The translations under genes were made by a program, and so were the position numbers. This document shows positions 7,929 to 43,728 of a stretch of 43,728 nt of DNA, one piece after another (the stretch's first letter is position 1; every line of letters begins with the position of its first letter). The notes beneath the pieces were generated by a model. The model did not search any database. It saw nothing but the letters and a program-made list of their open reading frames with translations, and was not told the origin of the DNA. Source of the DNA: a virus; the IMG/VR virus record IMGVR_UViG_3300031565_000093, positions 1-43,728 of that record, one strand, 5' to 3'.

Positions 7929-8110
7929 CGCCACAACTGCCGCCCGATACTGGCCGCACGCAGCTGTACCTGATCTACTCAGCATGTGAGCGATTCGGCA
8001 TGCAGGTGGAAACCTTCTACGGGCTGACGCGCCGCCAGCAGTTGCGATACCTGGCGTTTGAGCTAATACGCCAGGCGGAAAGCATACCACCGGCCAAAGG
8101 GATGACATGA
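7404..8110 (+). CDS. Tail assembly chaperone, GT form by -1 frameshift
   Basis: If ribosomes slip back one base on the T run at 7901-7904, reading continues in the -1 frame to TGA 8108-8110 and adds about 68 residues to make a protein of roughly 234 residues. The -1 frame is open from 7844 and encodes a plausible domain (QLYLIYSACERFGMQVETFY and LRYLAFELIRQAE) with no ribosome site or good start of its own. Its stop overlaps the tape measure start as ATGA. In lambda, the T domain of gpGT binds tail tube protein while the G part binds the tape measure. The slip itself is inferred. Confidence 0.8.
7898..7942 (+). promoter_or_regulatory. Programmed -1 frameshift signal
   Basis: Slippery core GGCTTTT (zero frame GCT-TTT) ends at 7904. 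A 7-base spacer follows, then a stem-loop at 7912-7942: CGGCAG with CTGCCG, internal loop CAC/CAA, inner stem TGGC with GCCA, and loop CTAGC holding the zero-frame stop. Spacer and stem match the usual design. The heptamer itself is not the classic X-XXY-YYZ form; only the TTT codon re-pairs perfectly. Confidence 0.75.
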
Positions 8111-10692
8111 TTCTCGAACGCCTAGTTGCACGAATCGAAGGTCAGAGCGGCCAGTTTGATCGCACCATGAGCAACATCGAGGGGCGGCAGCGCGCCATGA
8201 CGCAGCGCACCAGCGGCATGTGGCGGATGTTCGGGATGGCTGCGGCAGCCGCAGTGATTGCGGCAAGTGTCGCCGTCACCAGCATGGCGGTTCAGTTCGA
8301 TCAGTCCATGCGCCAGGTGTGGACGCTCGTTGACGTTACCGAAGCGGAATTCCAAAGCCTGAAAGAGGGCGTGCTTGACGTCCACGCGGCGATAGGCGAA
8401 AGCCAAACGGTTACGTCGCGGGCGTTGTATCAGGCTGTATCAGGCGGCGTTGCCCTAGGGGAGGCGCTCGAGTTTGTCGAGACGGCGGGGCGGGCTGCGA
8501 TCGCAGGCGCTACCGACATCTTCAGCATGACCAGCTTGTTGGTCGGCATCACGAACGCCTACGCTGGCTCACAAATAACCGCCGAACACGCAAGCGACGT
8601 CTTGTTCACCACCATCAAGTACGGCGTTACGACAGCAGAGGAATTGGGGGGCTCCCTTGGCCGCGTGTTGGGGATCGCCTCGGCGGCGGGGATCGCTTTT
8701 GAGGACCTGGCTGCCGGGGTTGCAACCGCCACCAAATTCATGGGCCAGACCGATCTTGTCGTAACCGGGTTGCGCGCCCTCATCATGGGCATCCTCACGC
8801 CGACTGACAAAGTTGCGGCGGCGGCTGAAAAACTCGGGTTGAATTGGAGCGCGGCAGCACTGCGAGCCTATGGGCTGCAGGGAATGTTGGTAAAGCTCAT
8901 CGAGGCCACGGGCGGCAACGCCGAAGCAATCGCCAAGATCGTACCTGAAGCGCGGGCGCTGGCGGTGGCGGCTGGATTTACCGCAGAAAATCTCGAGGAT
9001 TACGCAACGTACATGGCGGAGGCGGCGGAGAAGACCGGGCAGACCACGGAAGCGCTGAAAAAGATGACGGGGGCATGGCAAAGGTGGAAGAGGATCTTCG
9101 CCGGGGCGAAGAAAGATTTAATTAGCGGGGCAGAGGGCTTTGTTGGGCTGGCAGATGGAATCAGCAAGGCGCTACTCAAGATGCAAGCGTTCGAGCAAGT
9201 AAGAGAAACGGCGCTGGCAGGTAGGCTCGCGGAGGCGCTTCCAAAGATCATCGAACGCTACGTCGATGAGGGAACAATGGAGCTTGAGGAACTCCAGCGC
9301 AGGATCGAAGGGATGCAGCGCGGCCTAAGAGGATTTTGGGGCGACCCCGCGGTAAAGGCTGGCCGAATAGAACTCATTGCGCTGGAGGAACAATACGCTG
9401 CAGCGATAACAGACATCGAAGAGCGCATTACTAAAGCGAAAGAAGAAGAGGCGCGCGAGCACAGTGAACTGTACAAGCAGGAGGAGAAGGACAGAGTGGA
9501 CGCCGCGTTCGCCGCCAAGTTGGAACTCAAAGCGTCGGCAAAGGAATATCTCGCCTACATGGAAGGTGCCTTCCGCGACGAATCGGAAGCGTTACAGGAC
9601 GAGCTAGATCGCCGCGTCACGATGCACAAGAAATATGCGCAGGGAATCGAGCGCCTGCAGGAAAAACTTCGCGCGGATCAGTTGGGCGGGGCCGAGCTGC
9701 TGTTCAGGTTGGAGCTTGATCACGAGCAGAGCACCCTCGAGAAAATAGGGATGCTGCGGGCCAGAGCGGGCGAGATGGAAAGCAAGGCCAACAAGGCGTT
9801 GCTGGAGGGGGAGTTCAAAGACGCGCGGGAGTACGCGGATAAGCGGCTGCGCCTGCTTGAAGAGATCGCGCGGAAAGTCATGACTGAGGGGAAGGCCGCC
9901 ACGGGCATGGGATTCGCCGCGCCCTTAGCCGAGATAGAGGCCAAGCGCACCAAGGCCTTGCAGGAAAGGGATTTTGCGGGGGCCAAGGAATATGCGAATA
10001 AGCGGAAGCAGCTGCTTGCTCAGATCGCGCGGGAAGCAATCACTGAGGGCGAGGCCGTCACGGGCATGACCTTTGAGGCCGCCAAGGCCGCTGTGGAGCA
10101 GGGCATTGCATTCCAGCGGCAGATGACTGAAAGCAGCATCCGGCATTTCGAGACGCTGGCAGCCGGAGCCTTAACCAGCATCGAACAGCTTGAGGCAAAG
10201 CTTCACAACCTATTCGCCGCCGCGCGCGCAGAATTGGTCATCAACCTTGATGCGTCCGCGGGGATAGAGAATATCGAAGAGCTCACCAACGCGCTGCAGC
10301 AGGCCATCGACCGGGTGGCTGAGTTGGATCGCAAGTTGGGCCAGGCGCAGAAGAAACGCGCTGCACCGGAGGAGGCTTTTCAACATGGTGGCTGGGTCGG
10401 TGGCACAGGCGGCGTGGACAGAATTCCAGCGCTGCTTACCGCGGGCGAGTTCGTCGTGCAGCCGAGAGCTGCAGCGCGGCATGCGCAGCTCCTTGATGCC
10501 ATGAACCGTGGAATTGTTACGCCTGGCCAAGGTGCTGCGGTTGCGGCAGGAAACACATACACCACAGGCCCTATCGAGCTGCACTTCCACAACCCCGTGA
10601 CGCGCGAGGCGGTGCGCGACGTGGTGATACCGGAACTTGAGGCGGCGGCGCGGCGCGGGCTGCTTACGCCGACGCTGGGAGGCCGAGGATGA
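8107..10692 (+). CDS. Tape measure protein
   Basis: The 861-residue protein sets tail length and is ejected into the host. Residues 40-65 form a hydrophobic segment (AAAAAVIAASVAVTSMAV). Residues 100-310 carry the phage tape measure core, including GVTTAEELGGSLGRVLGIAS and GLRALIMGILTP. Long charged helices occupy 370-670, and the end has the FQHGGWVGGTGGVDRIPALLTAGEFVVQ type motif common in siphovirus tape measures. Two tandem repeats of about 53 residues lie near 562-665. By the rule of about 0.15 nm per residue the tail would be near 130 nm (inference). The ATG overlaps the chaperone -1 frame stop, and the end overlaps the next gene by 4 bases. Confidence 0.95.
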   Translation: MILERLVARIEGQSGQFDRTMSNIEGRQRAMTQRTSGMWRMFGMAAAAAVIAASVAVTSMAVQFDQSMRQVWTLVDVTEAEFQSLKEGVLDVHAAIGESQTVTSRALYQAVSGGVALGEALEFVETAGRAAIAGATDIFSMTSLLVGITNAYAGSQITAEHASDVLFTTIKYGVTTAEELGGSLGRVLGIASAAGIAFEDLAAGVATATKFMGQTDLVVTGLRALIMGILTPTDKVAAAAEKLGLNWSAAALRAYGLQGMLVKLIEATGGNAEAIAKIVPEARALAVAAGFTAENLEDYATYMAEAAEKTGQTTEALKKMTGAWQRWKRIFAGAKKDLISGAEGFVGLADGISKALLKMQAFEQVRETALAGRLAEALPKIIERYVDEGTMELEELQRRIEGMQRGLRGFWGDPAVKAGRIELIALEEQYAAAITDIEERITKAKEEEAREHSELYKQEEKDRVDAAFAAKLELKASAKEYLAYMEGAFRDESEALQDELDRRVTMHKKYAQGIERLQEKLRADQLGGAELLFRLELDHEQSTLEKIGMLRARAGEMESKANKALLEGEFKDAREYADKRLRLLEEIARKVMTEGKAATGMGFAAPLAEIEAKRTKALQERDFAGAKEYANKRKQLLAQIAREAITEGEAVTGMTFEAAKAAVEQGIAFQRQMTESSIRHFETLAAGALTSIEQLEAKLHNLFAAARAELVINLDASAGIENIEELTNALQQAIDRVAELDRKLGQAQKKRAAPEEAFQHGGWVGGTGGVDRIPALLTAGEFVVQPRAAARHAQLLDAMNRGIVTPGQGAAVAAGNTYTTGPIELHFHNPVTREAVRDVVIPELEAAARRGLLTPTLGGRG

Positions 10693-11126
10693 GCGTGCGG
10701 TTTCAATTGGGCGGTGTTGATTGCTACCTTCAAAATCCTGATCCCTCCAATACCGTCGACCAGAGGCGCATGCAAGTTATCCGCCAATCTGCCAGTGGTT
10801 CATATTACGCCTACGATAAGGGTGTAAAGACGCAGGTGTGGGTACTCCGCTGGAGCGGCCTGCGCGAGAGCGAAAAAACTGATTTGGAAAGCTTCTTCTG
10901 GAGCACGGTGAGGGGCGGCCAGTACGGATTTTGGTTCACGGATTGGAGAGGGACTGTTTGGCGGGTGCGCTTCTTGCAGACGTCCATCGTCTTTACGGAA
11001 GTGGCTGATGCGCGTGTGGGCGCGGCGACAACTTTTACAAGCGGCGGGGTGAGCTATCCGACGACAACGCGGGAAAAGGGCGTGTGGAGCACGGAAATTA
11101 CATTGTTCATTTCCTACGCGGCATAG
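10689..11126 (+). CDS. Small distal tail protein (DUF2460-like profile)
   Basis: A 145-residue protein after the tape measure gene, rich in Trp, Tyr and Phe. The segment ESFFWSTVRGGQYGFWFTDW resembles the core of DUF2460-type and related distal tail proteins that sit at the tip end of the tube. The ATGA overlap with the tape measure gene suggests coupled translation. Function is inferred from order and this motif; it may be the adaptor joining the tube to the large tip protein that follows. Confidence 0.65.
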   Translation: MSVRFQLGGVDCYLQNPDPSNTVDQRRMQVIRQSASGSYYAYDKGVKTQVWVLRWSGLRESEKTDLESFFWSTVRGGQYGFWFTDWRGTVWRVRFLQTSIVFTEVADARVGAATTFTSGGVSYPTTTREKGVWSTEITLFISYAA

Positions 11127-11165: not shown

Positions 11166-14100
11166 GTGAAAACACTATCGGCGGACATGCTGAAGGCACG
11201 GAGGCGGCTTTACGCAAGGCCCTATAACATCGTGAAGTTTGAATGGGGCGGCAGCGTCGGGGATAAGTGGTACAGCGACAGGGCCAGCGGCAGCGGCAAC
11301 GGCAGCAGCATCAGCAACCTCGCTGACCGGGTCGTTGATTGGGGGACGTACAGGCTGCCGCAGGCCGAGGGGCGTAGAGCGGCGGCTATTGCGGACATCA
11401 CAATCACCCTGCGCGACGAGGACGGCGTGATCCGCAGCATCCTGCAATGGAGAGGCCATCAACGAATCCCGGCCACGGTGTATCAGTGCTTCGTCGATAC
11501 CGGCGTGGAGACCGTCACCCTCGTGGACGGCGTGGCTGTTGCGCCTTTCCAGTGGCGCGAGACTGATGCAACCGTTGCCATTGACATTACGGAGCGGGCT
11601 CATCAGTTCAACCAGGTTATCGGCACCATGGTCACCAAGGACGACTGGCCGTATCTGGATGCCGATCAGTCCGCCATGTTGCCCATAGTATTCGGGCGGG
11701 TGCATCGGCGGAAAGCCTTCCTGCTCGAGGGCACGGTGGAGACCTCTTTGGCCGCGCCCCTTCGCATGGACGAGGAAGATCTCTTTGTAAATGACAGCGA
11801 AGATTTCCCCCAATACACGGCTATTAACCTATGGCTCGATGGTGAAAGTATTCGAGGCCGGTTCAAGGGCGGGAACCAGTTCTACACTGATGCGCGCGGC
11901 GACAATTCATACTCGGGACGCCTCACTGACGACAGCGATCATCTGCTGGAATTACGGTGCACGACACTACCCCCACCGATAAGCCAGTACATAGGCTTAT
12001 CCATCAGAATTTCTTTTGTGGACTTCCAGGGCTCTCACGGGATCGAACGCCAAATTATCGGCACCGATCCCGATATATCGGCTCTGTACATAAACCAGGT
12101 TATCCTGGCGTCCAGCATTTGGGGGCCATACTTTTGGTTTCCCCAACGCGGTGCGTCGTTTGAGATTGACGGCGAAGTGCGTGAGCATGCGAAGGGCACG
12201 CGCGTACTGCTCAAACGTGATCGATATACCTGGGTGCTCAACGACCAGCCCAGCAAAAACATAATCGCCGTCGAGGGCTCGATTGCGGGCGTAGCGAAAA
12301 ACGTCCCCACACGTGCGATCCAAGAGGGGTATTTCGCAAGGACTAAGCCTGTCGTCGAGCTCGTGCCTACAGGAAGTTACGCCGCAATCGAGCCAGCCCG
12401 ATACACCGTTAAGCTCAATGCTGCGGACACCATTCCCGGCAGGGTTCTCACCGTGATTAGGATGACGGTTCTCCCCACGATGATTGGGCCGGATTTTGCT
12501 TTCAGGTCTGACGATCTGTACGTGACATTCAATGGGGCCTATGATGCGGGCGGCGCTACGATCAAGAGCCCGCCTGATGTTATCCGCCAGTTGGGGTACA
12601 GATACCTCGGCATGGTGGCGGGCGATTTTGATCAGCCGAGTTTCGAGGCCGCGAAGAACCAGCTTACGTGGTGCCACTTCGGGTTCATGCTGCAGGAGCA
12701 ATATCAGGGCCTTGATCTGTTCGCCGATCTGGCCATGCAGGCAAGATGTATGCTCACCTGGGAGGGCGGGATAGCCAGGCTTCAATATCTTCGAGAGGGG
12801 CCTTTCGGGCCACCGTATGCGGGGGCGTTGACTGACGCTGAGCGCGAAGCATGGAGCATGGAGGTATACCATGAAACGCCAGAGAATGTCGTCACCGAAG
12901 TTCTAGCCGAATACACGCGCAAGGGCAGAAAGACACACTACGTGACGCAGAGCGCAGGCGCAATGGCCGCGTATGGCCGCCGAGTGTTGTCGTTGAACCT
13001 GTGGGCGCACAACCAGGTGCAGACCGTCAGGCCCGTGGCCGAGTTCTGGTTAGAGCGCCTATGCCATGCTCATGAAAGGGTGCGGGCCAGCACTTTTCTC
13101 CGCTTGCTCGAAATCGAGAGGGGAGACGCGTTGGCTGTTTCCGTAGACGATGTGGCGATAAGCCCCGCGGAGGTTATGAGCCTATCCCACCATCTCGGAA
13201 ACGCCCCACAGGATCGCATGGACAACATGACGTTTGATTTGCGATTGCCACGTTGGGGCGGATGCGAAAGCACATGCGAAATGCCCTGCGAAGTCGACAC
13301 GGAAGTAATGGCCACGCCTGGCCCACACGCGGGCAAGGCCGGATGCGAATTGGGCTGCACCTATCATTGCCAATCAACTTGCGAGGAAGCGTGCGAACTG
13401 ACGTGCGTGTCGGGCTACGAACTGCTGATGGTGAGGGATAAGGAAGAGTGGCTGGCAGGATGTGTGGCTTCCTGTCAGGTTGATTGTACGACCGCGTGCG
13501 CTACGGCTTGCCAGGTTAGCTGCGAAAGCAGATGTGAAACTGGCTGCGAAGTGTATTGCGAAACCACCTGCGAATCAGGTTGCGAGATTTATTGCGAAAG
13601 TGGATGCGAGACGGAATGCGAAAGTGCCTGCGAAACGGCGTGCCAGGTTATGTGTGAAAGCGAGTGCGAATCCGGGTGCGAAATGGGATGCGAGTCGGGC
13701 TGCGAAACGGAATGCGAATCCGGGTGCGAAACAGGGTGCGAGCTGGGCTGTGAGGTCTACTGTCAGACGGGCTGCGAATCAAGTTGCGAAGTCGGCTGCG
13801 AATCCGATTGCGAAACCGGGTGCGAGGCGATGTGCCAGAGCACTTGCGAGACTGGCTGCGAAACCAGTTGTGAAACTGGATGCGAAACCAGCTGCGAGAC
13901 GGGCTGCGAGGTTACCTGTGAGACGGGGTGTGAAACCAGCTGCGAAACTGGCTGCGAAGTAACTTGTGAAACCGGATGCGAGGTCACGTGTGAAACGGGG
14001 TGCGAAGTGGGCTGCGAGACCGGGTGCCAGGTCAGTTGCGAAGTTTCCTGCACGGCTGGCGGCGTAGAATGTTGCGAGCTGCCGTGCTGGTGTCACTCCG

Positions 14101-14279
14101 ACCCAGGAGGCCTCGGCTCTCCGTACCTTGAGGCTTGCAAGATGTGGAACTGGTGTCCGCCATGGACTACGGGGAACTGCACGTACATCGGCTACTCCGA
14201 GTGCATCACTGTGACGTGCAATAATTACGGCCCGCTGCCGTGGGAATACTGGTACGAATCCAATAACTGTGTGACGTAA
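11166..14279 (+). CDS. Tail tip protein with Cys-tetrad repeat domain
   Basis: A 1037-residue protein at the tip position. Residues 1-690 look like a tail hub: mixed strands, a WYSDRASG start region and a helical part around QGLDLFADLAMQARCM. From about residue 698 it becomes extremely Cys-rich. Residues 766-965 are 50 consecutive four-residue units each starting with Cys, consensus C-E-(T/S/V)-(G/S/T); 40 of the 50 have Glu next and 6 have Gln. Nine less regular units precede this tract. The last 72 residues mix Cys with Trp and Tyr and probably form a terminal knob. Start GTG 11166. A radical SAM/SPASM enzyme lies two genes downstream. The N-terminal role is from order; the repeat domain function is unknown. 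Confidence 0.85.
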   Translation: MKTLSADMLKARRRLYARPYNIVKFEWGGSVGDKWYSDRASGSGNGSSISNLADRVVDWGTYRLPQAEGRRAAAIADITITLRDEDGVIRSILQWRGHQRIPATVYQCFVDTGVETVTLVDGVAVAPFQWRETDATVAIDITERAHQFNQVIGTMVTKDDWPYLDADQSAMLPIVFGRVHRRKAFLLEGTVETSLAAPLRMDEEDLFVNDSEDFPQYTAINLWLDGESIRGRFKGGNQFYTDARGDNSYSGRLTDDSDHLLELRCTTLPPPISQYIGLSIRISFVDFQGSHGIERQIIGTDPDISALYINQVILASSIWGPYFWFPQRGASFEIDGEVREHAKGTRVLLKRDRYTWVLNDQPSKNIIAVEGSIAGVAKNVPTRAIQEGYFARTKPVVELVPTGSYAAIEPARYTVKLNAADTIPGRVLTVIRMTVLPTMIGPDFAFRSDDLYVTFNGAYDAGGATIKSPPDVIRQLGYRYLGMVAGDFDQPSFEAAKNQLTWCHFGFMLQEQYQGLDLFADLAMQARCMLTWEGGIARLQYLREGPFGPPYAGALTDAEREAWSMEVYHETPENVVTEVLAEYTRKGRKTHYVTQSAGAMAAYGRRVLSLNLWAHNQVQTVRPVAEFWLERLCHAHERVRASTFLRLLEIERGDALAVSVDDVAISPAEVMSLSHHLGNAPQDRMDNMTFDLRLPRWGGCESTCEMPCEVDTEVMATPGPHAGKAGCELGCTYHCQSTCEEACELTCVSGYELLMVRDKEEWLAGCVASCQVDCTTACATACQVSCESRCETGCEVYCETTCESGCEIYCESGCETECESACETACQVMCESECESGCEMGCESGCETECESGCETGCELGCEVYCQTGCESSCEVGCESDCETGCEAMCQSTCETGCETSCETGCETSCETGCEVTCETGCETSCETGCEVTCETGCEVTCETGCEVGCETGCQVSCEVSCTAGGVECCELPCWCHSDPGGLGSPYLEACKMWNWCPPWTTGNCTYIGYSECITVTCNNYGPLPWEYWYESNNCVT
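13461..14060 (+). repeat. 50-unit Cys-x-x-x coding repeat (residues 766-965)
   Basis: Every fourth codon is TGC or TGT for 50 units without a break. Glycine tends to fill the fourth position of alternate units, giving an eight-residue super-period such as CETGCETS or CETGCEVT. At DNA level the units differ in synonymous codons, so the protein pattern, rather than recent DNA copying, appears to be preserved. Confidence 0.95.
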
Positions 14280-14290
14280 AGGAGCAAGCG

Positions 14291-14782
14291 ATGGCTGCGG
14301 GCGTCCCAGCAGATGTGCGAGAACTTTTCAGGCAATGCCCATTCCGCGAAGTTCGGATGATAGTATTGGAAGGCAGTATCTCGCCGAGGCCGGGTGAAGT
14401 TTCCAAGTGCTTTGCCATCGATACGGTATTGGGGTTCCCCGCTGGCTCTGTCGGCGTCCATGAGAGTACGTGTGCGGTTTGCGTATCAACCGGGCAGCCG
14501 GGCTCCCTCGACAACGCGGCATTCAAAGCGGATGTAGACAGCGCCGCCACAGCTAGGATCGGCTCCGGTGCGTGCCCTCAAGGAGTCGACCGCGACATCG
14601 TTATAGCCAAGGCCCTGGTGGCGGGCACGGATAAGGAGCGCCTGCGCCTAGCGCTTATTCGTGGGGTAAAGACGGCTGAGAAAGCGAAGGCCCTAGGTAG
14701 AACGCCCCCGAACCCATTGACGGAGGAGGAGGCCATGCGCTTGGCTGTGGATCATGATTTACTAAGTGAGGTTGCGCGATGA
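14291..14782 (+). CDS. Small Cys-containing protein after tail tip, unknown function
   Basis: A 163-residue protein with a good TAAAGGAG ribosome site, lying between the tail tip and the radical SAM cassette. Cysteines fall at 16, 40, 61, 64 (CAVC) and 95, enough for a metal site. The C-terminal third is helical and charged (DKERLRLALIRGVKTAEKAKAL). No signal peptide or membrane segment. I recognise no family. Its position makes it a candidate accessory to the tip protein or to its modification, but nothing in the sequence proves this. Confidence 0.65.
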   Translation: MAAGVPADVRELFRQCPFREVRMIVLEGSISPRPGEVSKCFAIDTVLGFPAGSVGVHESTCAVCVSTGQPGSLDNAAFKADVDSAATARIGSGACPQGVDRDIVIAKALVAGTDKERLRLALIRGVKTAEKAKALGRTPPNPLTEEEAMRLAVDHDLLSEVAR

Positions 14783-15072
14783 GCGTTACGGATGATTTTG
14801 CAAGGGAGTTGCGGCTTGCGGCCAAGATCGGGCGCGCGTCGGGTAACGTGTCCGCAGTGCCGGAAGAAGTACGCAAGCGACGCGAGGAAGCCTGCCGCGA
14901 GTGCTCCGCAACCGAAATAGTGGATGGACGACCGCGCTGCTCCTATTGCGGCTGTGATGTGGAAGCGCGACTGTACAAGGCCGATGCGGTTTGCGCGAAG
15001 AACTTATGGCCTGCGCTGACCGAGGAGATGCTGGGGCTGCAGAATTCAGAAAAGGAAATGCCGATGGGATAG
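14779..15072 (+). CDS. Small zinc-ribbon protein (CxxC...CxxCGC type)
   Basis: A 97-residue protein whose start overlaps the previous stop (ATGA). Cysteines 39, 42, 54, 57, 59 and 72 form the pattern CRECS ... CSYCGCDV ... VCAKNLW, a small metal-binding module seen in many phage and bacterial orphan proteins, often ending in a Trp as here. The first 38 residues are helical and charged. Its last codons overlap the second structured RNA element. Role unknown; zinc binding is inferred. Confidence 0.7.
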   Translation: MSVTDDFARELRLAAKIGRASGNVSAVPEEVRKRREEACRECSATEIVDGRPRCSYCGCDVEARLYKADAVCAKNLWPALTEEMLGLQNSEKEMPMG

Positions 15073-15189
15073 CAGCCGGAGGCGTCGCGGCCTGATCAGC
15101 CGCGGTTCGCCGAGGACGGACTAAAGCACCTGACTGCATGCAGGCGGCCAGGTGCTTTTTTTGTCTGCGCCTCCGGCTGCTGACCCATC
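15063..15189 (+). ncRNA. Structured RNA element, copy 2 (before radical SAM gene)
   Basis: This is the same architecture as 6404-6533. The outer stem joins GATGGG plus GCAGCCGGAGGCG (15063-15084) to the complement at 15168-15189, and encloses hairpin CGCGGC/GCCGCG (15086-15104) and a terminator hairpin. The region between hairpins differs from copy 1, while both hairpins keep their pairing; the base of the terminator stem changes from G-C in copy 1 to A-T here. The ribosome site of the radical SAM gene lies just outside the 3' arm. Confidence 0.75.
15123..15162 (+). terminator. Rho-independent terminator inside RNA element copy 2
   Basis: Stem AAAGCACCTG with CAGGTGCTTT and a 16-base loop, running into seven T residues (15156-15162). 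It separates the tail-tip genes from the radical SAM cassette, so read-through or a separate promoter is needed for the latter. Confidence 0.8.
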
Positions 15190-15205
15190 AAGGAGTAGGA
15201 CTAAT

Positions 15206-16744
15206 ATGTTCAGAGTGCTCAATGCCAACATCACGCCGCGCGTGCGCATGCTACGTGGCCAAGCGGAGCCGCAGGTACATTTCTTCGTAGTGAAAGATGA
15301 CCACTTTGCTTACGACGCCAACAGCATGGCCCTGGTGCATTTGGAGCCAGCGTTGTGGAAGACGCTGCGCGACGACCCTGGTGCGGCCAAGAAGTTCGGC
15401 GGCATGCTGTGGTGCCGCGACAAACCGCAGTTTGATGCGTACCTTCCCAGGGTGCGGGCGCTGGTGCTCAACGTGACGCACAAGTGCAACCTGGCCTGCA
15501 GGTATTGCTTCGTGCGGAACGTGGACGACTACCAGGCCGATGCCCTCCCAGACATGAGTTATGAGACGGCCATCGAAGCGATCAACCATGTATTCCCGCC
15601 TGACAGCAACGCGCCTTTGGACGTCGGGTTCTTTGGCGGTGAACCGTTCGTCAATTGGCGGACGATGGCGCGGGTAGTGGACTGGGTCGAAAGCGAGGCT
15701 GGGGAACGGGGGCATGGCAAGAAGCTGCACGTAACGACCAATGCCACGCTGATTGACGACGAGAAAGCACAGTGGCTGAAGGGCCACGATTTCAACCTGG
15801 TGCTGAGCCTGGACGGCGACGAAGTCACACACAACGCCATGCGGCCTGCGCGTAATCCGCAGACCAATAGCTGGCTGGCCACCATGAACGGGTTGGAGCG
15901 CCTGGCAGCCGCTGGCCTGGGGCCGCGGATAACGCTGCGCAGCACGTTTACCGCCGAGGGTGTTGACCTGGTGGAACGCCTGCATGACCTGAACAGTTTG
16001 GTGTGGCGGGGCATGGCTGGTGCGGTGGCTATCGAGCCTGCGTGCCTGTCGGAGTTCAGCTGCGTGGATCAAAACGTGGCGAAGGAGTTGGCGTTTGATC
16101 CCGACAGAATCCTGGCGCAGTTCCAGTATCAGTACGAACGCGCGGCGGACTGGTACATCGAGCAGATCAACGACGGCCGCAGGCCGCACTTCCACCACTT
16201 CGATACCTTCATTCGGCGGCTGTTATGGTGCGAACACAACCCCTCGGAATGCGGCGCGGGGAAGGGCTATTTGGCCGTCAATCCAAAGGGCGAGCTGTTT
16301 GCGTGCCATCGTGAAACGCGGTCGCGCATCGGGGCGCTGCCGGGCGGCGTAGACGAGCACCTGCGGACAGCGTGGATGGACAACCGCATCTATGCCCGCA
16401 CCGGCTGCATGGAATGCCATTGGCGGCACGTGTGCGGCGGCGGGTGCCGCGTGAACAGTTTGGCGCACGGGCTGACCATCCACGAACCAGCGCCGGAAGA
16501 TTGTATCTTCAAACGACTGTGGATGGAGCACGCAGCCTATATCATCGCTCATGTGGACAACAGCAAGCTGCAGGAGCTTTATCGGCCACGTGGGGAGCAG
16601 CGGAAGCGCCGACCGCAGCAACAGAGGCGACCGCGGCACGGGCCTATGCGCGGACCACTACCGACACGCCAGCCAGGCCAAACACGCAGGGAAGGGAACA
16701 GCAATGCCAGAAGCGGAGAACACAGCGGCGCGCGGCGAACGTAG
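15206..16744 (+). CDS. Radical SAM/SPASM peptide maturase
   Basis: The 512-residue protein has the radical SAM motif C94-x3-C98-x2-C101 (CNLACRYC), the SAM-binding GGEP motif (FFGGEPFVNW), and a complete seven-Cys SPASM domain: C349, C367, then C401-x2-C404-x5-C410-x3-C414, and C433. The N-terminal 90 residues (HFAYDANSMALVHLEP) resemble the front of SCIFF/ranthipeptide and QhpD-type maturases, which install thioether links from Cys to other residues. The C-terminal 75 residues are Arg/Gln/Gly-rich and probably disordered. Start ATG 15206 follows AAGGAGTAGGA; a longer open frame lacks support. The nearby Cys-tetrad tip protein is a natural candidate substrate. Enzyme class is firm; substrate is a guess. 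Confidence 0.93.
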   Translation: MFRVLNANITPRVRMLRGQAEPQVHFFVVKDDHFAYDANSMALVHLEPALWKTLRDDPGAAKKFGGMLWCRDKPQFDAYLPRVRALVLNVTHKCNLACRYCFVRNVDDYQADALPDMSYETAIEAINHVFPPDSNAPLDVGFFGGEPFVNWRTMARVVDWVESEAGERGHGKKLHVTTNATLIDDEKAQWLKGHDFNLVLSLDGDEVTHNAMRPARNPQTNSWLATMNGLERLAAAGLGPRITLRSTFTAEGVDLVERLHDLNSLVWRGMAGAVAIEPACLSEFSCVDQNVAKELAFDPDRILAQFQYQYERAADWYIEQINDGRRPHFHHFDTFIRRLLWCEHNPSECGAGKGYLAVNPKGELFACHRETRSRIGALPGGVDEHLRTAWMDNRIYARTGCMECHWRHVCGGGCRVNSLAHGLTIHEPAPEDCIFKRLWMEHAAYIIAHVDNSKLQELYRPRGEQRKRRPQQQRRPRHGPMRGPLPTRQPGQTRREGNSNARSGEHSGARRT

Positions 16745-17081
16745 GTACACCAACGGGCGGCGCGGCACGGACTTGATTACACTAGGCTGGCTGCAGGAAG
16801 ACGCGCGCCTCAAGGGCGACCTGACGCGGGCGGTGAAGGACATGGGGCGGCGGCTGGAACGTATGGAGCCGATTATCACCGAGGCGACCACAGCGATTGC
16901 CACGCACAGCACCATATTGGAGGCCTATGCGAACGCCCAGATCCTCGAGGGCGTGCAGGACTTGCGCACCTGGCGCAAGCTGGTGAGCAGCATCTTTGTC
17001 GGCTTGTGGGGCTTCGGCGCGCTCATAGGTGTAGGCGCGGTGGTGCATCGCCTTACCACGGGGCATTGGATCGGCCAATGA
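16704..17081 (+). CDS. Coiled-coil membrane protein, possible holin-like
   Basis: ATG 16704 after AGGGAAGGGAA gives 125 residues. Residues 30-90 are helical and charged (MGRRLERMEPIITEATTAIA), followed by one membrane span (SSIFVGLWGFGALIGVGAVV) and a short tail. This outline resembles XhlA-like or other single-span phage lysis or anchor proteins, but no signature confirms it. It overlaps the end of the radical SAM gene by 41 bases and the next start by 4, so it belongs to that operon and could instead anchor a modification complex. Confidence 0.6.
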   Translation: MPEAENTAARGERRYTNGRRGTDLITLGWLQEDARLKGDLTRAVKDMGRRLERMEPIITEATTAIATHSTILEAYANAQILEGVQDLRTWRKLVSSIFVGLWGFGALIGVGAVVHRLTTGHWIGQ

Positions 17082-18154
17082 ACATTCGAGTGTTACGCGA
17101 AGCGGGAGGCCTGGGCGATCTGGTGCGCCTGTTCCCCGTGATCGCTGGCCTGAAGGCCAAGTACCCCGGCAGCGAACTGCACTTCTTTTGCCTCGGCCAC
17201 TACCAGGAGCTGGTGATGCACGGGCATTGCCCTGGCGTAGATGCGTACATAAGCGTGGCGCACCACCTGCGGCGGCAGCGCATGTCGCCGATAGACGAGA
17301 AGAAGCACAGATATCTCCGCACGGGGGTGAAGTACGATCTGGACGTCGATATGTATTGCCCCGCCTTCGTGCACGAACGCGAAACGCAAGGGGCGGTCAC
17401 GCGGGAGCGCACGGAGCTATGGTGCGCGGCTGTGGGCGTACCCGTGGGCCGCCCTGTTTTTCACCTGGCGGAGGAGGAGCGCGCGTGGGCGCAGGCATGG
17501 CGCACGAAGGCGCTGCAGCCGCTGTGCCCCGACGTCGATACGTCCGCCCCAGGCAGGATCGTTGCCCTGCAGCCGCACAGCACTACCACGCAGCGCAACT
17601 GGGCAGCGCGGAGCTGGCAGGAGTTGGCCATGATGTTTATGCAGGAAGGGTATGCGGTGGTGATGCTGGACTGCTGCAGCGGCAGATTTCGGGGCTGGCC
17701 CTCAACCCTCCAGGAAGTGAATCGCCCATTTGGCCAATTGGCTGCGCTGCTGAGCGTGTGCGGCCTGGCCATCACGCCCGACAGCGGGATTTACCATCTG
17801 GCCGGTGCGGTGGGCACGCCAGCCCTGGGCATATTTGGCAACACAAATGGCGAAATCATCAGCCGCATTTGGAGGCCCACGGGCTACTACATAAGCAAGG
17901 CCGAGGCCGACCTGGATCGCGACTTACTGCCCGCGGATTGCAAGCCGCCCTGTTATGGCTTCCGGGATCGCGGGGCCGCAATAGAATGCCGGAAGAACGG
18001 ATGTGGAGCAGCCCATCAGATCACTGTGGAGGAAGTACATGCCAAGGCACACGAAATCATCGCGGAGCATTGGCCCAATAGGCGCGACGGTGGATTGCCC
18101 GCCGAAGGTGGGGCCGGAGTACTGCGATCAGGCGTACTGGCAGGACGCCACTAA
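17078..18154 (+). CDS. GT9-family glycosyltransferase
   Basis: The 358-residue protein starts MNIRVLREAGGLGDLVRLFP, the typical opening of heptosyltransferase-like (GT9, GT-B fold) enzymes. The donor-site region TPDSGIYHLAGAVGTPALGI followed by FGNTNGE is also characteristic. GT9 enzymes move sugars, classically ADP-heptose, onto lipopolysaccharide. The real start is ATG 17078 (ATGA overlap). Cysteines near the end (CKPPCYGF and others) are extra. In this operon, with radical SAM and methyltransferase genes, the acceptor could be a tail protein or the host surface; sequence cannot decide. Confidence 0.9.
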   Translation: MNIRVLREAGGLGDLVRLFPVIAGLKAKYPGSELHFFCLGHYQELVMHGHCPGVDAYISVAHHLRRQRMSPIDEKKHRYLRTGVKYDLDVDMYCPAFVHERETQGAVTRERTELWCAAVGVPVGRPVFHLAEEERAWAQAWRTKALQPLCPDVDTSAPGRIVALQPHSTTTQRNWAARSWQELAMMFMQEGYAVVMLDCCSGRFRGWPSTLQEVNRPFGQLAALLSVCGLAITPDSGIYHLAGAVGTPALGIFGNTNGEIISRIWRPTGYYISKAEADLDRDLLPADCKPPCYGFRDRGAAIECRKNGCGAAHQITVEEVHAKAHEIIAEHWPNRRDGGLPAEGGAGVLRSGVLAGRH

Positions 18155-18806
18155 GTCGGGGTATCGCAGCTACAACGGCACCTGGCCGCTGCACCAGTAC
18201 ATCGGGCACATGCTCGCTCTAACCCTGGGGCCTTGGCCGAAGGGCAGCCGCGTGCTGGATGTCGGCGGGGCCTTCGGATACCACATGGATTGGTTGGAGA
18301 AGTACGCCCCGTGCGAGGGCTACGTGGTGGACGGCAGCATGTACGCCATCACCCACTGCGTGCCGCACTTGGCAAATCGCACGTACCATCGGGACCTCGG
18401 CGCCAACCCCTTGCCTTTCCCTGACGAGCATTTTCATCGAGTGGTCTCTATCGAAACGCTCGAGCACATTAGCATACGGGAGGTGGCCTTTGCCCTGCGG
18501 GAGATCCGGCGCGTGCTCGAGCCAGGCGGACTGCTGTACGCCAGCATTGCGATTGGCGAGGCCTACGATCCCGACTTCATAGACGATACGCACCAGACCA
18601 TGCGCCTACGCGCCTGGTGGGAATGCATGTTTGACCACGTGGGCCTGGTGCCGCGGCCCGATGTTGCCGAGCGGGTAAGGGCAACGGTTGTGCCCTCTGC
18701 CGGCGGCGCGTATCGGGGCGGATACCTGGCGCGCGAAATGCATTGGGAAATTTTCTGCTACCAGAAGAAAGGAGCGTGCCAATGGAATGGTGGCGCAACG
18801 TCCTGA
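18039..18806 (+). CDS. Class I SAM-dependent methyltransferase
   Basis: ATG 18039 follows TGGAGGAAG and gives 255 residues; it overlaps the glycosyltransferase gene by 116 bases. Motif I is VLDVGGAFGYHMDW, motif IV region is FHRVVSIETLEHIS, and ALREIRRVLEPGGLLYAS is the usual strand-helix after it (Methyltransf_11 type). These enzymes methylate small molecules, sugars or proteins. The N-terminal YWQDATKSGYRSYNG segment is like sugar- or peptide-linked methyltransferases found beside glycosyltransferases. Substrate unknown; the neighbourhood suggests tailoring of a surface or virion component. Confidence 0.9.
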   Translation: MPRHTKSSRSIGPIGATVDCPPKVGPEYCDQAYWQDATKSGYRSYNGTWPLHQYIGHMLALTLGPWPKGSRVLDVGGAFGYHMDWLEKYAPCEGYVVDGSMYAITHCVPHLANRTYHRDLGANPLPFPDEHFHRVVSIETLEHISIREVAFALREIRRVLEPGGLLYASIAIGEAYDPDFIDDTHQTMRLRAWWECMFDHVGLVPRPDVAERVRATVVPSAGGAYRGGYLAREMHWEIFCYQKKGACQWNGGATS

Positions 18807-31340: not shown

Positions 31341-32078
31341 GTGGCGCGCAAAAGGATGGTATCGGAAGCGCTGTATGATGACGCGGCGCTTCTGGCAGTA
31401 GGGCGAGATGCAAGAGACCTATTCATAGGATTGGTATTACACGCAGACGATGAAGGAAGGCTGTTCTACGAGCCTGACTATTGGGCTCAACGGCTGTTCC
31501 CGGGCGAGACAATCGAGGTCTCGAAGCTGGTATGGAAGCTGAGTCATCGGGGCCTGATCTACAAGTATCGCATGGGCCGCAACCGATATGCGGTCATCGT
31601 TCCGGGATGGTTCAACTGGCAGAAAATCAGACGCGCCACACCATCCCAAATCCCCCTACCAAACAGCTCGGAAATAGTCCGGGTGCTATCACGGTGCTAT
31701 CACGGTGATGACACGGTGCTATCACGGTGCTCACACGGTGCTGTCACGCTGGGGGTATACCTGCGTACACTGTGCGGACACTATGCTATCACGATGCGTA
31801 CACACACTCACGCGGTGATTAAGCGTAAGTTCCGTGACCGCTTCATCTTACTGTCACGAGTACTCGGAATGTGTTCCGGAAAGCCGTTGGCAAGTTGTTG
31901 GAAAGATGCGGGAATCGATCCGGAATCTGTCCGGCAAAGCTTTAAGGAAGGATCAGAAAGGAAAGAAGAAGTAGAGGAGATCGATAAATCGATCCGGGAG
32001 GCAAAGAAAAAAGCGAAGGACGGATTCATCGGTCCACTGATAGAGAAGGAGCTTCAGAAGCTGGCGGAGGTGGCGTGA
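31341..32078 (+). CDS. Replication initiator with internal origin iterons
   Basis: GTG 31341 gives 245 residues. Residues 1-100 form the winged-helix front of phage replisome organisers (SEALYDDAALLAVGRDARDL, DDEGRLFYEPDYWAQRLFPG, RYAVIVPGWFNWQKIRR). The C-terminal 60 residues are a charged helix (KEEVEEIDKSIREAKKKAK). The middle is coded by DNA that contains six tandem 11-bp repeats, recalling lambda O, whose origin lies inside its own gene. It probably binds those repeats and brings in host helicase. A second, related initiator-like gene is at 25241. Confidence 0.72.
   Translation: MARKRMVSEALYDDAALLAVGRDARDLFIGLVLHADDEGRLFYEPDYWAQRLFPGETIEVSKLVWKLSHRGLIYKYRMGRNRYAVIVPGWFNWQKIRRATPSQIPLPNSSEIVRVLSRCYHGDDTVLSRCSHGAVTLGVYLRTLCGHYAITMRTHTHAVIKRKFRDRFILLSRVLGMCSGKPLASCWKDAGIDPESVRQSFKEGSERKEEVEEIDKSIREAKKKAKDGFIGPLIEKELQKLAEVA
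31682..31747 (+). repeat. Six 11-bp iterons, likely replication origin
   Basis: Consensus GGTGCTATCAC. Units 1, 2 and 4 are identical; units 3, 5 and 6 differ at 2 to 3 positions. All six are head to tail with no gaps. Eleven bases is one DNA turn but not a multiple of three, so the pattern is kept for DNA and not for protein. A further TGCTATCAC lies at 31784. This is the strongest origin candidate in the window. Confidence 0.8.
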
Positions 32079-41506: not shown

Positions 41507-42987
41507 ATGGATGGCGGCTGAGACGCCGCATAGAAACGAAGCGCCTCGAGTTGGAGATGCAGCAGCTCGAAGGCGCGGAAGCCCTTATGGCCAGCGCGAT
41601 CCAGGAGACGCGGGCGAACAACTGGGCGGACGAGGACAAGGACTGGCGGGAGTGGGAGCCGATTGACCAGGAGGGGGTGTCGGCCTATCGTGGGCTGACG
41701 CTCGAGCGGCTCACGGTCATGCGGAACAAGGCGCGCACGCTGGCACGGGATAACCCGCACGCGAAGGGCATCTTGCGGAACTTCGTGAAGTACGTGGTCG
41801 GCAAGGGGTTCTCCTACTCGGCCGAAACGGACGACCCGCAGGTGGCTGAGAAAGCTGCAGAGGAGTGGGAGAGATTCTGCAACGCAAACAACTGGGCGAG
41901 CATGGAGCGGGAGATCGTCAAGCGGAGCCTGCGGGACGGCGAAGTGTTTCTGCGTTTCTTCAGGCAGCCCGAGACGCTCCTTGTGCGCTTCGTCGATCCG
42001 GTCTTGGTAACGCCCAAGAGCGCGGATATGAAGCATCCGTTCGGCATCGAATACAAGCCCGACGACCTCGGCGGGCCGCCCATAGCGTATTACATCCGGC
42101 CGAACTACGAGACCATCACATCGGATCGGATAGACGCCAAAGAGATCGACCATATTAAAGTCGAGGTGGACAGCGACATTCCTCGAGGTATCAGCGTGCT
42201 CTGGAGCGTGCGGAGGCGGCTGCGGCAGTACGACACGTGGTTGGGGGATCGCCTGATACTGAATAAGCTTCGCACGGCCATCGTGCTGGTGCGCAAGCAC
42301 AAGGGCGCGAGCCCATCGCAAATCGCGGCCTTTGCCACCGCCCAGCAGACGGAGAGCAAGACGGACGATCTGACGGGCGACAGCTACCGAAGCAAGACGA
42401 TTCACCCCGGTAGTGTCGTGGACATCCCGGACACTATTGATCTCGAGTACATGGCTGCGAACATCAACGCGCGCGACGTCGCCGCTGACGGCAGGGCGGT
42501 TCTGCTTTCGGTTGCCGCTGGCATAGGGCAGCCGGAATACATGGTCACGGGTGATGCCAGCAATGCGAACTATGCAAGCACGATGGTGGCCGAAGGGCCT
42601 GGAGTGAAAGAGTTCGAATATTGGCAGGGCGTGTTCGGCGGGGAGTTCGCTGCCATCTGGCGACGGGTCATGGCGTGGGCAGGCCAGGCACACGCGGGGG
42701 CGGCCGCCGTTGCCGCCTGTGGCGTACAAGTCGTAGGTGCACGGGTGATTACGCGCAAACCGAAGGAAGAGGCCGAGACGGGCCAGATTCTGGCGGACAA
42801 CGGCGTGATCAGCAAGCGCACGTGGGCGGCGCGGGAAGGGCTCGACTACGAGGAAGAGCAGCGCTACATCGAGGCGGAAGAGGGCACGGGCGCCGGGGGC
42901 CCTGTAAGTCGCGACGAAGGCGAGGCAGAGGATGAGGGCGCGAGCCTCGAGGGTGCCCGGCAACCCCAGGAGCTACCGGCGGCATGA
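41503..42987 (+). CDS. Portal protein (lambda gpB-like)
   Basis: The best start is TTG 41503, after AAGGAGGTGG and overlapping the previous stop (TTGA), giving 494 residues; an upstream ATG at 41476 lacks a ribosome site. The protein has the layout of Phage_portal_2 members: LTVMRNKARTLARDNPHAKG, then FVKYVVGKGF, RDGEVFLRF, LLVRFVDPVLVTP, GIEYKPDD, IPRGISVLWSV, and TGDASNANYAST near residue 345. It forms the dodecameric ring through which DNA enters. It couples by ATGATGA to the MuF gene. Confidence 0.93.
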   Translation: MNGWRLRRRIETKRLELEMQQLEGAEALMASAIQETRANNWADEDKDWREWEPIDQEGVSAYRGLTLERLTVMRNKARTLARDNPHAKGILRNFVKYVVGKGFSYSAETDDPQVAEKAAEEWERFCNANNWASMEREIVKRSLRDGEVFLRFFRQPETLLVRFVDPVLVTPKSADMKHPFGIEYKPDDLGGPPIAYYIRPNYETITSDRIDAKEIDHIKVEVDSDIPRGISVLWSVRRRLRQYDTWLGDRLILNKLRTAIVLVRKHKGASPSQIAAFATAQQTESKTDDLTGDSYRSKTIHPGSVVDIPDTIDLEYMAANINARDVAADGRAVLLSVAAGIGQPEYMVTGDASNANYASTMVAEGPGVKEFEYWQGVFGGEFAAIWRRVMAWAGQAHAGAAAVAACGVQVVGARVITRKPKEEAETGQILADNGVISKRTWAAREGLDYEEEQRYIEAEEGTGAGGPVSRDEGEAEDEGASLEGARQPQELPAA

Positions 42988-43728
42988 TGATCGTTGCCGA
43001 AAGGACTAACCTGCCCCGCGTGGTGCTGCGGAAGATGCAGAAGGCGCAGCTGCGCGCCGCCGATCTCTCGGTCGCCCAGGTCCTCCGCGATCTCAAGGCA
43101 ACTCTGAATGCGGAGAGCCGCGTCGAGCGGCTGCTGGCATTGAGTCGGGAGCAGCGGGATATCCTATCCTGGACCTGGCCATACGCGGAGGATACCGAGC
43201 TTCCGCTGGCGCCGCCTGCCGCACGCGCTCTCGGCAACGATATCGCCGACGAAATCCAGAGACGCCGTGCGCCAATGATACGCGAGGCGCATGCGGTGGT
43301 GGGGCGCACCTTCATTGCCATCGCCGAGCGGGCTTACGTGGCCTACCAGTGGATCGTAGATTCGATGGATCAGGCCATGGTGGATGCTTTGGGTCGCGTG
43401 CGGGAACACCGTACCTTGGTGGAGCAGGAAGGCGAGGCTCTTCCCTTTCCCGACCACGCGAGGCTTACGGGGCTGTACGTGCCCGCGACGAACGAGCAGA
43501 CCATGCGTTGGGTAAACGCGCGGGCCCCCTGGGACGGTAAGGCCTTATTGAATCGATTTGAGGACCTCGAGGGCGTCGACCGAGCGATGCTGCGCAGGCA
43601 GCTCGTGCAAGGGCTCCGCGAAGGCCAGGGCATGGCCAAGATAGCGAGGAACGTCCGCAAGGGCGTGGGCATGGTTCAGCATCGGGCAACGACCATCGCG
43701 CGCACCGAGATCATGCGAGCGAGCCACG
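42984..43728 (+). CDS. MuF-family head morphogenesis protein, N-terminal part
   Basis: The gene starts at ATG 42984 (or 42987) overlapping the portal stop and runs off the window end. The frame continues into base 1, so this is the front of the protein whose end is at 1-854. The N-terminal 139 residues are helical (LPRVVLRKMQKAQLRAADLS), then VDRAMLRRQL stands where the other copy has FDRGVLRAQL. The last 327 bases overlap the window start. Confidence 0.88.
   Translation, partial: MMIVAERTNLPRVVLRKMQKAQLRAADLSVAQVLRDLKATLNAESRVERLLALSREQRDILSWTWPYAEDTELPLAPPAARALGNDIADEIQRRRAPMIREAHAVVGRTFIAIAERAYVAYQWIVDSMDQAMVDALGRVREHRTLVEQEGEALPFPDHARLTGLYVPATNEQTMRWVNARAPWDGKALLNRFEDLEGVDRAMLRRQLVQGLREGQGMAKIARNVRKGVGMVQHRATTIARTEIMRASH
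43402..43728 (+). repeat. Window-end overlap with bases 1-327 (circular or redundant genome)
   Basis: The last 327 bases match the first 327 with no gaps. Sixteen substitutions are confined to 43529-43597 (equal to 128-196); both flanks are identical. Five amino acids differ. This closes the molecule at 43401 bp. Confidence 0.95.

Follow-up and report, generated by a model that had tools for sequence, protein, structure and literature searches.

A radical SAM enzyme beside a cysteine-repeat tail-tip protein: a probable virion-protein maturation cassette in a phage genome

The window considered here, 43,728 bases long, is the record of an uncultivated virus (IMG/VR IMGVR_UViG_3300031565_000093), and attention falls on a pair of nearby genes, one encoding a presumptive tail-tip protein with a long Cys-x-x-x (CX3) repeat, the proposed substrate, and the other a radical S-adenosylmethionine (rSAM) enzyme of the SPASM type, its candidate maturase. 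The tail-tip gene (11166–14279, 1037 amino acids [aa], plus strand, as are all genes of this locus) owes its assignment to its location after the tape-measure gene (8107–10692, 861 aa; PF10145, 77 bits; phrog_991, 1e-30). Between the two sits a 145-aa small tail protein (10689–11126), itself named by position and free of any family match, in an order that recurs in the related locus L003. Residues 552–663 of the tail tip carry weak J/megatron-like similarity (NF048004, E 0.12), and a relative, L169, matches phrog_31 at E 0.008; a profile search of the N-terminus against the PDB gave no match, and the annotated phage collection yielded no relative of the protein. The CX3-repeat region spans residues 700–965 (13263–14060), and a C-terminal cap rich in Cys and aromatic residues, kept in L003, completes the chain (residues 966–1037, 14061–14276). 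Downstream lie a 163-aa protein of no known family, shared with L003 only (14291–14782), and a 97-aa zinc-ribbon-like protein (14779–15072; phrog_13558, 3e-6; DUF6171, weak), whose gene likewise precedes the rSAM gene in L003 and in L386/L445. The 512-aa rSAM enzyme follows at 15206–16744 (PF04055, with a match to CteB); its open reading frame (ORF) opens at a GTG at 15152, and relatives place the start at the ATG at 15206.

The repeat is built from three runs: three units from residue 700, six from residue 727, and 50 unbroken at residues 766–962, the last run beginning at base 13461 and its final unit closing at 14060. Of 56 units, 43 have Glu as their second residue and another 7 have Gln. 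An earlier note on this DNA, drawn from the sequence alone, had described 50 consecutive units, mostly Cys-Glu-x-x, and both descriptions are exact; its statement that the protein ends in the repeat is not, since some 72 residues of cap follow. Comparison with L003, which is about 65% identical to the window protein in the N-terminal part, finds 62 of 63 Cys retained, 27 of them with the codon changed between TGC and TGT, and the Glu or Gln after Cys retained in 45 of 48 instances. The ratio of nonsynonymous to synonymous substitution (dN/dS) in the repeat, measured against L001, is 0.07. By these sequence comparisons, the repeat is coding and under purifying selection. A low-complexity origin is ruled out by the diversity of the units together with the synonymous TGC/TGT switches.

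The enzyme is readily placed as a SPASM rSAM protein but not in any one characterized family. It matches Radical_SAM PF04055 with 48.6 bits against a cut-off of 29.5; the CX3CX2C motif (C94/C98/C101) is invariant in its clade, and all seven SPASM cysteines (349, 367, 401, 404, 410, 414, and 433) can be assigned, each invariant or nearly so. The earlier note's complete SPASM rSAM enzyme two genes downstream of the tail tip is thus borne out, the two intervening ORFs being those of the 163-aa and 97-aa proteins. Its likening of the enzyme to SCIFF and QhpD maturases also finds an echo in the best NCBIfam scores, albeit below every cut-off: SCIFF (TIGR03974), 185.4 bits against 425; nif11, 170; PapB (NF047865), 169 against 340; and QhpD (TIGR03906), 158.9 against 453. 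The best solved relative by sequence is CteB, the SCIFF thioether maturase (5wgg, 1.9e-34). An AlphaFold2 model with a predicted local distance difference test score (pLDDT) of 85 likewise finds CteB as its best Foldseek match (4e-25, TMt 0.81), with the anaerobic sulfatase maturase anSME also a fold match. The tree places the window enzyme within a seven-member viral clade (support 100/99), every member adjoining CX3 repeats, and this clade is sister to the SCIFF maturases (93/92). Other CX3-linked enzymes occupy at least three further clades: a TIGR04115-type clade, a PapB-like clade together with Phass-1, and an L216/L173/L210 group.

The principal evidence that enzyme and repeat belong together comes from their co-occurrence, approached from both directions, with genes called in the scripts by motif and as stop-to-stop ORFs. 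In the forward direction, viral and genome contigs were scanned by pattern for CX3 repeats; the scans returned low-complexity noise as well as heterogeneous arrays, low-complexity CX3 loci of the same collection served as controls, and all forward counts are among the matches listed. An rSAM motif was present in 23 of 42 slices bearing heterogeneous arrays, including the window's own slice and near-copies, versus 5 of 285 low-complexity loci. When whole records were chosen only for heterogeneous CX3, PF04055 exceeded its cut-off in 28 of 37 versus 1 of 42 controls (Fisher p=1.6e-12, related records included, kinship among records inflating such p-values), and removal of near-duplicates left 26 of 33 with an rSAM, counted from the same tables. 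That several clades and scaffolds contribute argues against an effect of single ancestry. Among the nine records without PF04055, G012 has a 520-aa rSAM-like gene beside its repeat gene (CX3CX2C, Cys-rich C-terminus, sub-Pfam), G004 and G037 have weak rSAM matches directly adjoining theirs, a contig end cuts near the repeat gene in G007, G013, G015, and G017, and the repeat of G001 is doubtful.

In the reverse direction, relatives of the enzyme were sought in viral contigs with an rSAM alignment that is blind to repeats, and near-copies were removed; alignments were required, as a single-sequence search of the viral contigs returned no close rSAM relatives. A heterogeneous CX3 ORF lay on the rSAM strand in 12 of 16 distinct window-clade loci and in 29 of 50 more distant rSAM loci, against 7 of 74 background viral loci bearing such an ORF. 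Four window-clade loci lack one; for two of these, L431 and L432, hardly any upstream sequence is available. In all pairs measured, repeat and rSAM genes share a strand, and many are adjacent or overlapping. Loci found through the enzyme also allowed the preference at residue 2 to be measured afresh, since the first search pattern had favored Glu/Gln there: of 1047 units, 467 have Glu, 288 Gln, and 91 Thr. The preference persists in these repeat-blind loci and is therefore not a product of the search pattern. The earlier note had named Cys-repeat tips mostly devoid of an rSAM gene as the pattern that would tell against it; what emerged is strong co-occurrence in both directions, on one strand and usually between adjacent genes. 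The matching of enzyme to substrate, which that note had offered as conjecture, accordingly gains independent comparative support, and the pairing of rSAM and CX3 repeat is, on comparative grounds, strongly supported.

The surveys also turned up rSAM genes and repeats of other kinds. Matches in the annotated phage collection are mostly unannotated gut records without a CX3 repeat, those examined being SCIFF-type-like; not every phage rSAM is therefore of the CX3-linked kind. The isolated Achromobacter phage 2-1 (L364) encodes an rSAM four genes after its baseplate hub (7992–9350) and has no Cys repeats, and in Phage Phass-1 (L369, genetic code 15) a pair of rSAM genes precedes the gene of a Cys-rich protein of 174 aa (7986–10725). 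In L370, a 520-aa rSAM-like protein of a divergent clade (13219–14781; CSGGCVYC, Cys-rich C-terminus), missed by PF04055, lies close to a CX3 protein with 119 Cys. L376 (G005), L434, and L435 each encode several CX3-repeat proteins, up to three within one 20-kb stretch. In a number of large phages (L489 at 12774–15371, L490, L463, L467, and L493), proteins of about 200 aa end in CTCNCNYC-type repeats near an rSAM; these proteins, which form tandem paralogues in L489 and L490, constitute a second class of repeat.

Within the tail-tip family itself, repeat and enzyme come and go together. Both are present in the window, L003, L169, L424, and L507, the last a contig from a planctomycete bin in which the two genes are 13 bases apart; L425, L426, and L427, distant relatives of the tail tip, have neither, and L423 has the repeat at the point where its contig ends. 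Outside this family, the repeat is carried by P2 gpI-like proteins (L206, 43 bits; L198, 27 bits; L152, weak), by a YqbQ/hub-like protein in L160 (weak), by a J-like fiber in L208 (2e-12), and by others besides. The CX3 repeat behaves as a module that can move between proteins, placed at the C-terminus or internally. The spread of the system over at least four rSAM clades had no place in the earlier note.

Taken together, the genomic evidence points to a virion-protein maturation cassette, in which the rSAM enzyme probably installs Cys thioethers along the tail-tip rod, which may also be glycosylated. As synthesized, the tail tip would carry a C-terminal rod with roughly 59 Cys-[Glu/Gln]-x-[small] units. 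The SPASM enzyme, in a host cell presumed anaerobic, would then abstract a side-chain hydrogen and join each Cys sulfur to a nearby residue, the likeliest acceptor being the γ-carbon of the Glu/Gln at +5 from that Cys, or at −3. Overlapping thioether rings would yield a stiff, acidic, non-reducible tail-tip rod. We infer not only that this tail protein is the substrate, but also the thioether type and its partners, the glycosylation, the location in the virion, and the mechanical role. The chemistry has precedent in QhpD (PMC5682303) and PapB (PMC9413430), which link the sulfur of Cys to the carbon adjacent to an Asp/Glu carboxylate. PapB performs well across spacers of one to five residues, with Asp/Glu as acceptors (PMC9413430); given Glu/Gln at residue 2, this range leaves a spacing of four (Cys i to i+5) as the only forward option, with backward i−3 possible.

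Several observations weigh against so specific a reading. The window enzyme lies under every NCBIfam equivalog cut-off and far below the characterized maturases, such that its bond type is not readable from homology. The Glu/Gln of the window stand at +1/+5 from Cys versus the native +4 of PapB, and the acceptors documented in the literature consulted are Asp and Glu, with Gln not among them; the earlier note's analogy to Cys–Asp/Glu thioethers has to be qualified accordingly, PapB's native CX3D spacing not being reproduced. No leader peptide was recognized in the 1037-aa tail protein, whose repeat is the C-terminal part of a structural protein. AlphaFold2 gave no usable fold for the full tail tip (five sequences) or the repeat (pLDDT 30). 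The enzyme is present with no visible CX3 array in L443/L444, and 21 of the 50 more distant rSAM loci lack an array. Alternatively, the enzyme might modify the repeat by another chemistry, be it sactionine links to α-carbons, Cys oxidation in the manner of the anaerobic sulfatase maturases, or C–C links. Its relatives do span several chemistries, as both an anaerobic sulfatase maturase and TigE match it by sequence and fold; it reaches no characterized family cut-off; and a second class of repeats has Ser/Thr/Gly at residue 2 (L048, L083, and L088). Yet the tree, the sequence comparison, and the fold all place thioether formers (SCIFF/CteB) nearest to the enzyme, and the strong bias toward Glu/Gln as second residue of the unit fits side-chain acceptors, which makes these alternative chemistries unlikely. 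More radically, the CX3 rod might be a plain disulfide or metal-binding array, with the rSAM acting on a tRNA, a metabolite, or another protein and the linkage reflecting shared late modules. That a SPASM enzyme is complete does not reveal what it acts on, and phage rSAMs without a CX3 partner exist, as in Achromobacter phage 2-1. However, two-way enrichment, independent enzyme clades and scaffolds, and joint absence in L425–L427 are unexpected of hitch-hiking, and the closest rSAM families are all peptide or protein maturases; this explanation we consider quite improbable.

A further component, absent from the earlier note, is a linked glycosyltransferase. In the window, a GT9-type enzyme with a four-Cys C-terminal motif (17078–18154; PF01075, 60.9 bits) is followed by a SAM methyltransferase (Methyltransf_11, 18003–18806) that is kept in L003. 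Of 24 CX3 records tested, 7 have a PF01075 match, and all 7 belong to the window enzyme clade. In 19 of 25 window-clade loci, a few near-copies included, a local profile detects a GT9 directly after the rSAM, as compared with 1 of 75 other loci and none of 80 controls; in many window-clade loci a GT2 comes next. In L440 (8737–11379), rSAM and GT9 are naturally fused in one open frame of 881 codons. The GT9, and with it a GT2 or the methyltransferase, would probably decorate the same chain that the rSAM modifies, for example at its abundant Ser/Thr. Phages often carry surface-modifying enzymes, and these glycosyltransferases could instead modify host lipopolysaccharide (LPS) or another virion protein, which would be compatible with thioether installation by the rSAM. 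GT9 enzymes include LPS heptosyltransferases, and the only NCBIfam matches of the GT9s here are to those models, weak and below cut-off; by profile, they are best described as LPS-heptosyltransferase-like. Such a role apart from the maturation is a real possibility, but one we lean against, given the near-constant position after the rSAM in the window clade versus its rarity at other CX3 loci, the single polypeptide in L440, and a four-Cys motif loosely reminiscent of the iron finger of TibC autotransporter heptosyltransferases (PMC4358343). TibC, like these enzymes, is a GT9-like glycosyltransferase with a C-terminal four-Cys module; it modifies proteins and has repetitive targets. Its Cys spacing is C-x2-C-x15-C-x11-C (PMC4358343) versus roughly C-x3-C-x11-C-x4-C here, so that neither the iron-finger spacing nor the family of TibC-type protein heptosyltransferases is matched.

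Two features of the window lie apart from the cassette. The first and last ORFs (1–854 and 42984–43727) represent opposite ends of a single Mu gpF-like gene; they share 108 overlapping residues at 95% identity, and the record thus probably comprises a whole genome, circularly permuted, whose ends are variants. A short tandem repeat with the 11-bp unit GGTGCTATCAC occupies 31682–31748.

The earlier note presented the system as a new use of the chemistry of ribosomally synthesized and post-translationally modified peptides (RiPPs). No precedent in phage tails was found, and a literature search outside most subscription papers and preprints returned no phage rSAM/Cys-repeat tail system or such virion maturation; the pairing of a CX3 repeat with an rSAM, on the other hand, is already recorded in NCBIfam TIGR04115. 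What appears new, from the loci compared, is the presumed phage-tail substrate, the scale (arrays reaching well beyond 100 units), the recruitment on several occasions, and the link to GT9. A broader generalization, on which our judgment is evenly divided, is that a general CX3 module placed on unrelated tail proteins gives rise to stapled, glycosylated tail-tip rods via rSAMs and GT9/GT2, probably in phages of anaerobic hosts, SPASM rSAM enzymes having putatively been recruited several times independently. If true, the reach of rSAM peptide chemistry would extend from its known settings, small peptides and a handful of host enzymes, into the structure of the virus particle, and many phage lineages would have taken it up. 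The proposal would also account for a class of odd Cys-repeat tail proteins without Pfam names. In addition, the CX3 arrays, with 8 to over 120 units, would offer long natural substrates, along with their enzymes, for making stapled protein rods.

By anatomy, the window enzyme is likened to the SCIFF, PapB, QhpD, and CXXX-repeat enzymes, while being a member of none. The CXXX-repeat systems of TIGR04115 share with it a Cys at every fourth residue adjoining a SPASM rSAM maturase, the 50-unit run here lying two ORFs upstream of the enzyme. The enzyme of the CX3 phage L088 is a full member of that family at 473 bits against a cut-off of 350, whereas the window enzyme reaches 46.6. Clostridial members differ in belonging to small-peptide clusters, such as L390 with its ~60-aa CX3 ORF, S8-like protease, and ABC ATPase, as opposed to a presumed substrate that is a 1037-aa tail protein. 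SCIFF maturation offers the sister clade and the best fold match (CteB, PDB 5WGG/5WHY), but its partner is a short six-Cys peptide. TigE (PDB 8VPO), an rSAM enzyme that is another match in both sequence and fold, has a repetitive peptide as its target. It is tied to cyclopropylglycine formation (PMC9062424) and not to thioethers, and it is not a phage system. The PapB/PapA ranthipeptides, to whose maturase several CX3 phage enzymes score best, have Cys–Asp/Glu side-chain thioethers at repeated, short, and promiscuous spacings (PMC9413430); in PapA, an Asp occupies +4, a position taken in the window by the next Cys, and the CX3D/E spacing is not found here. QhpD, unlike the window system, serves a host dehydrogenase subunit with few links and not a virion repeat, but it forms intra-protein Cys–Asp/Glu thioethers in a full protein and is thus the closest protein-substrate precedent (PMC5682303).

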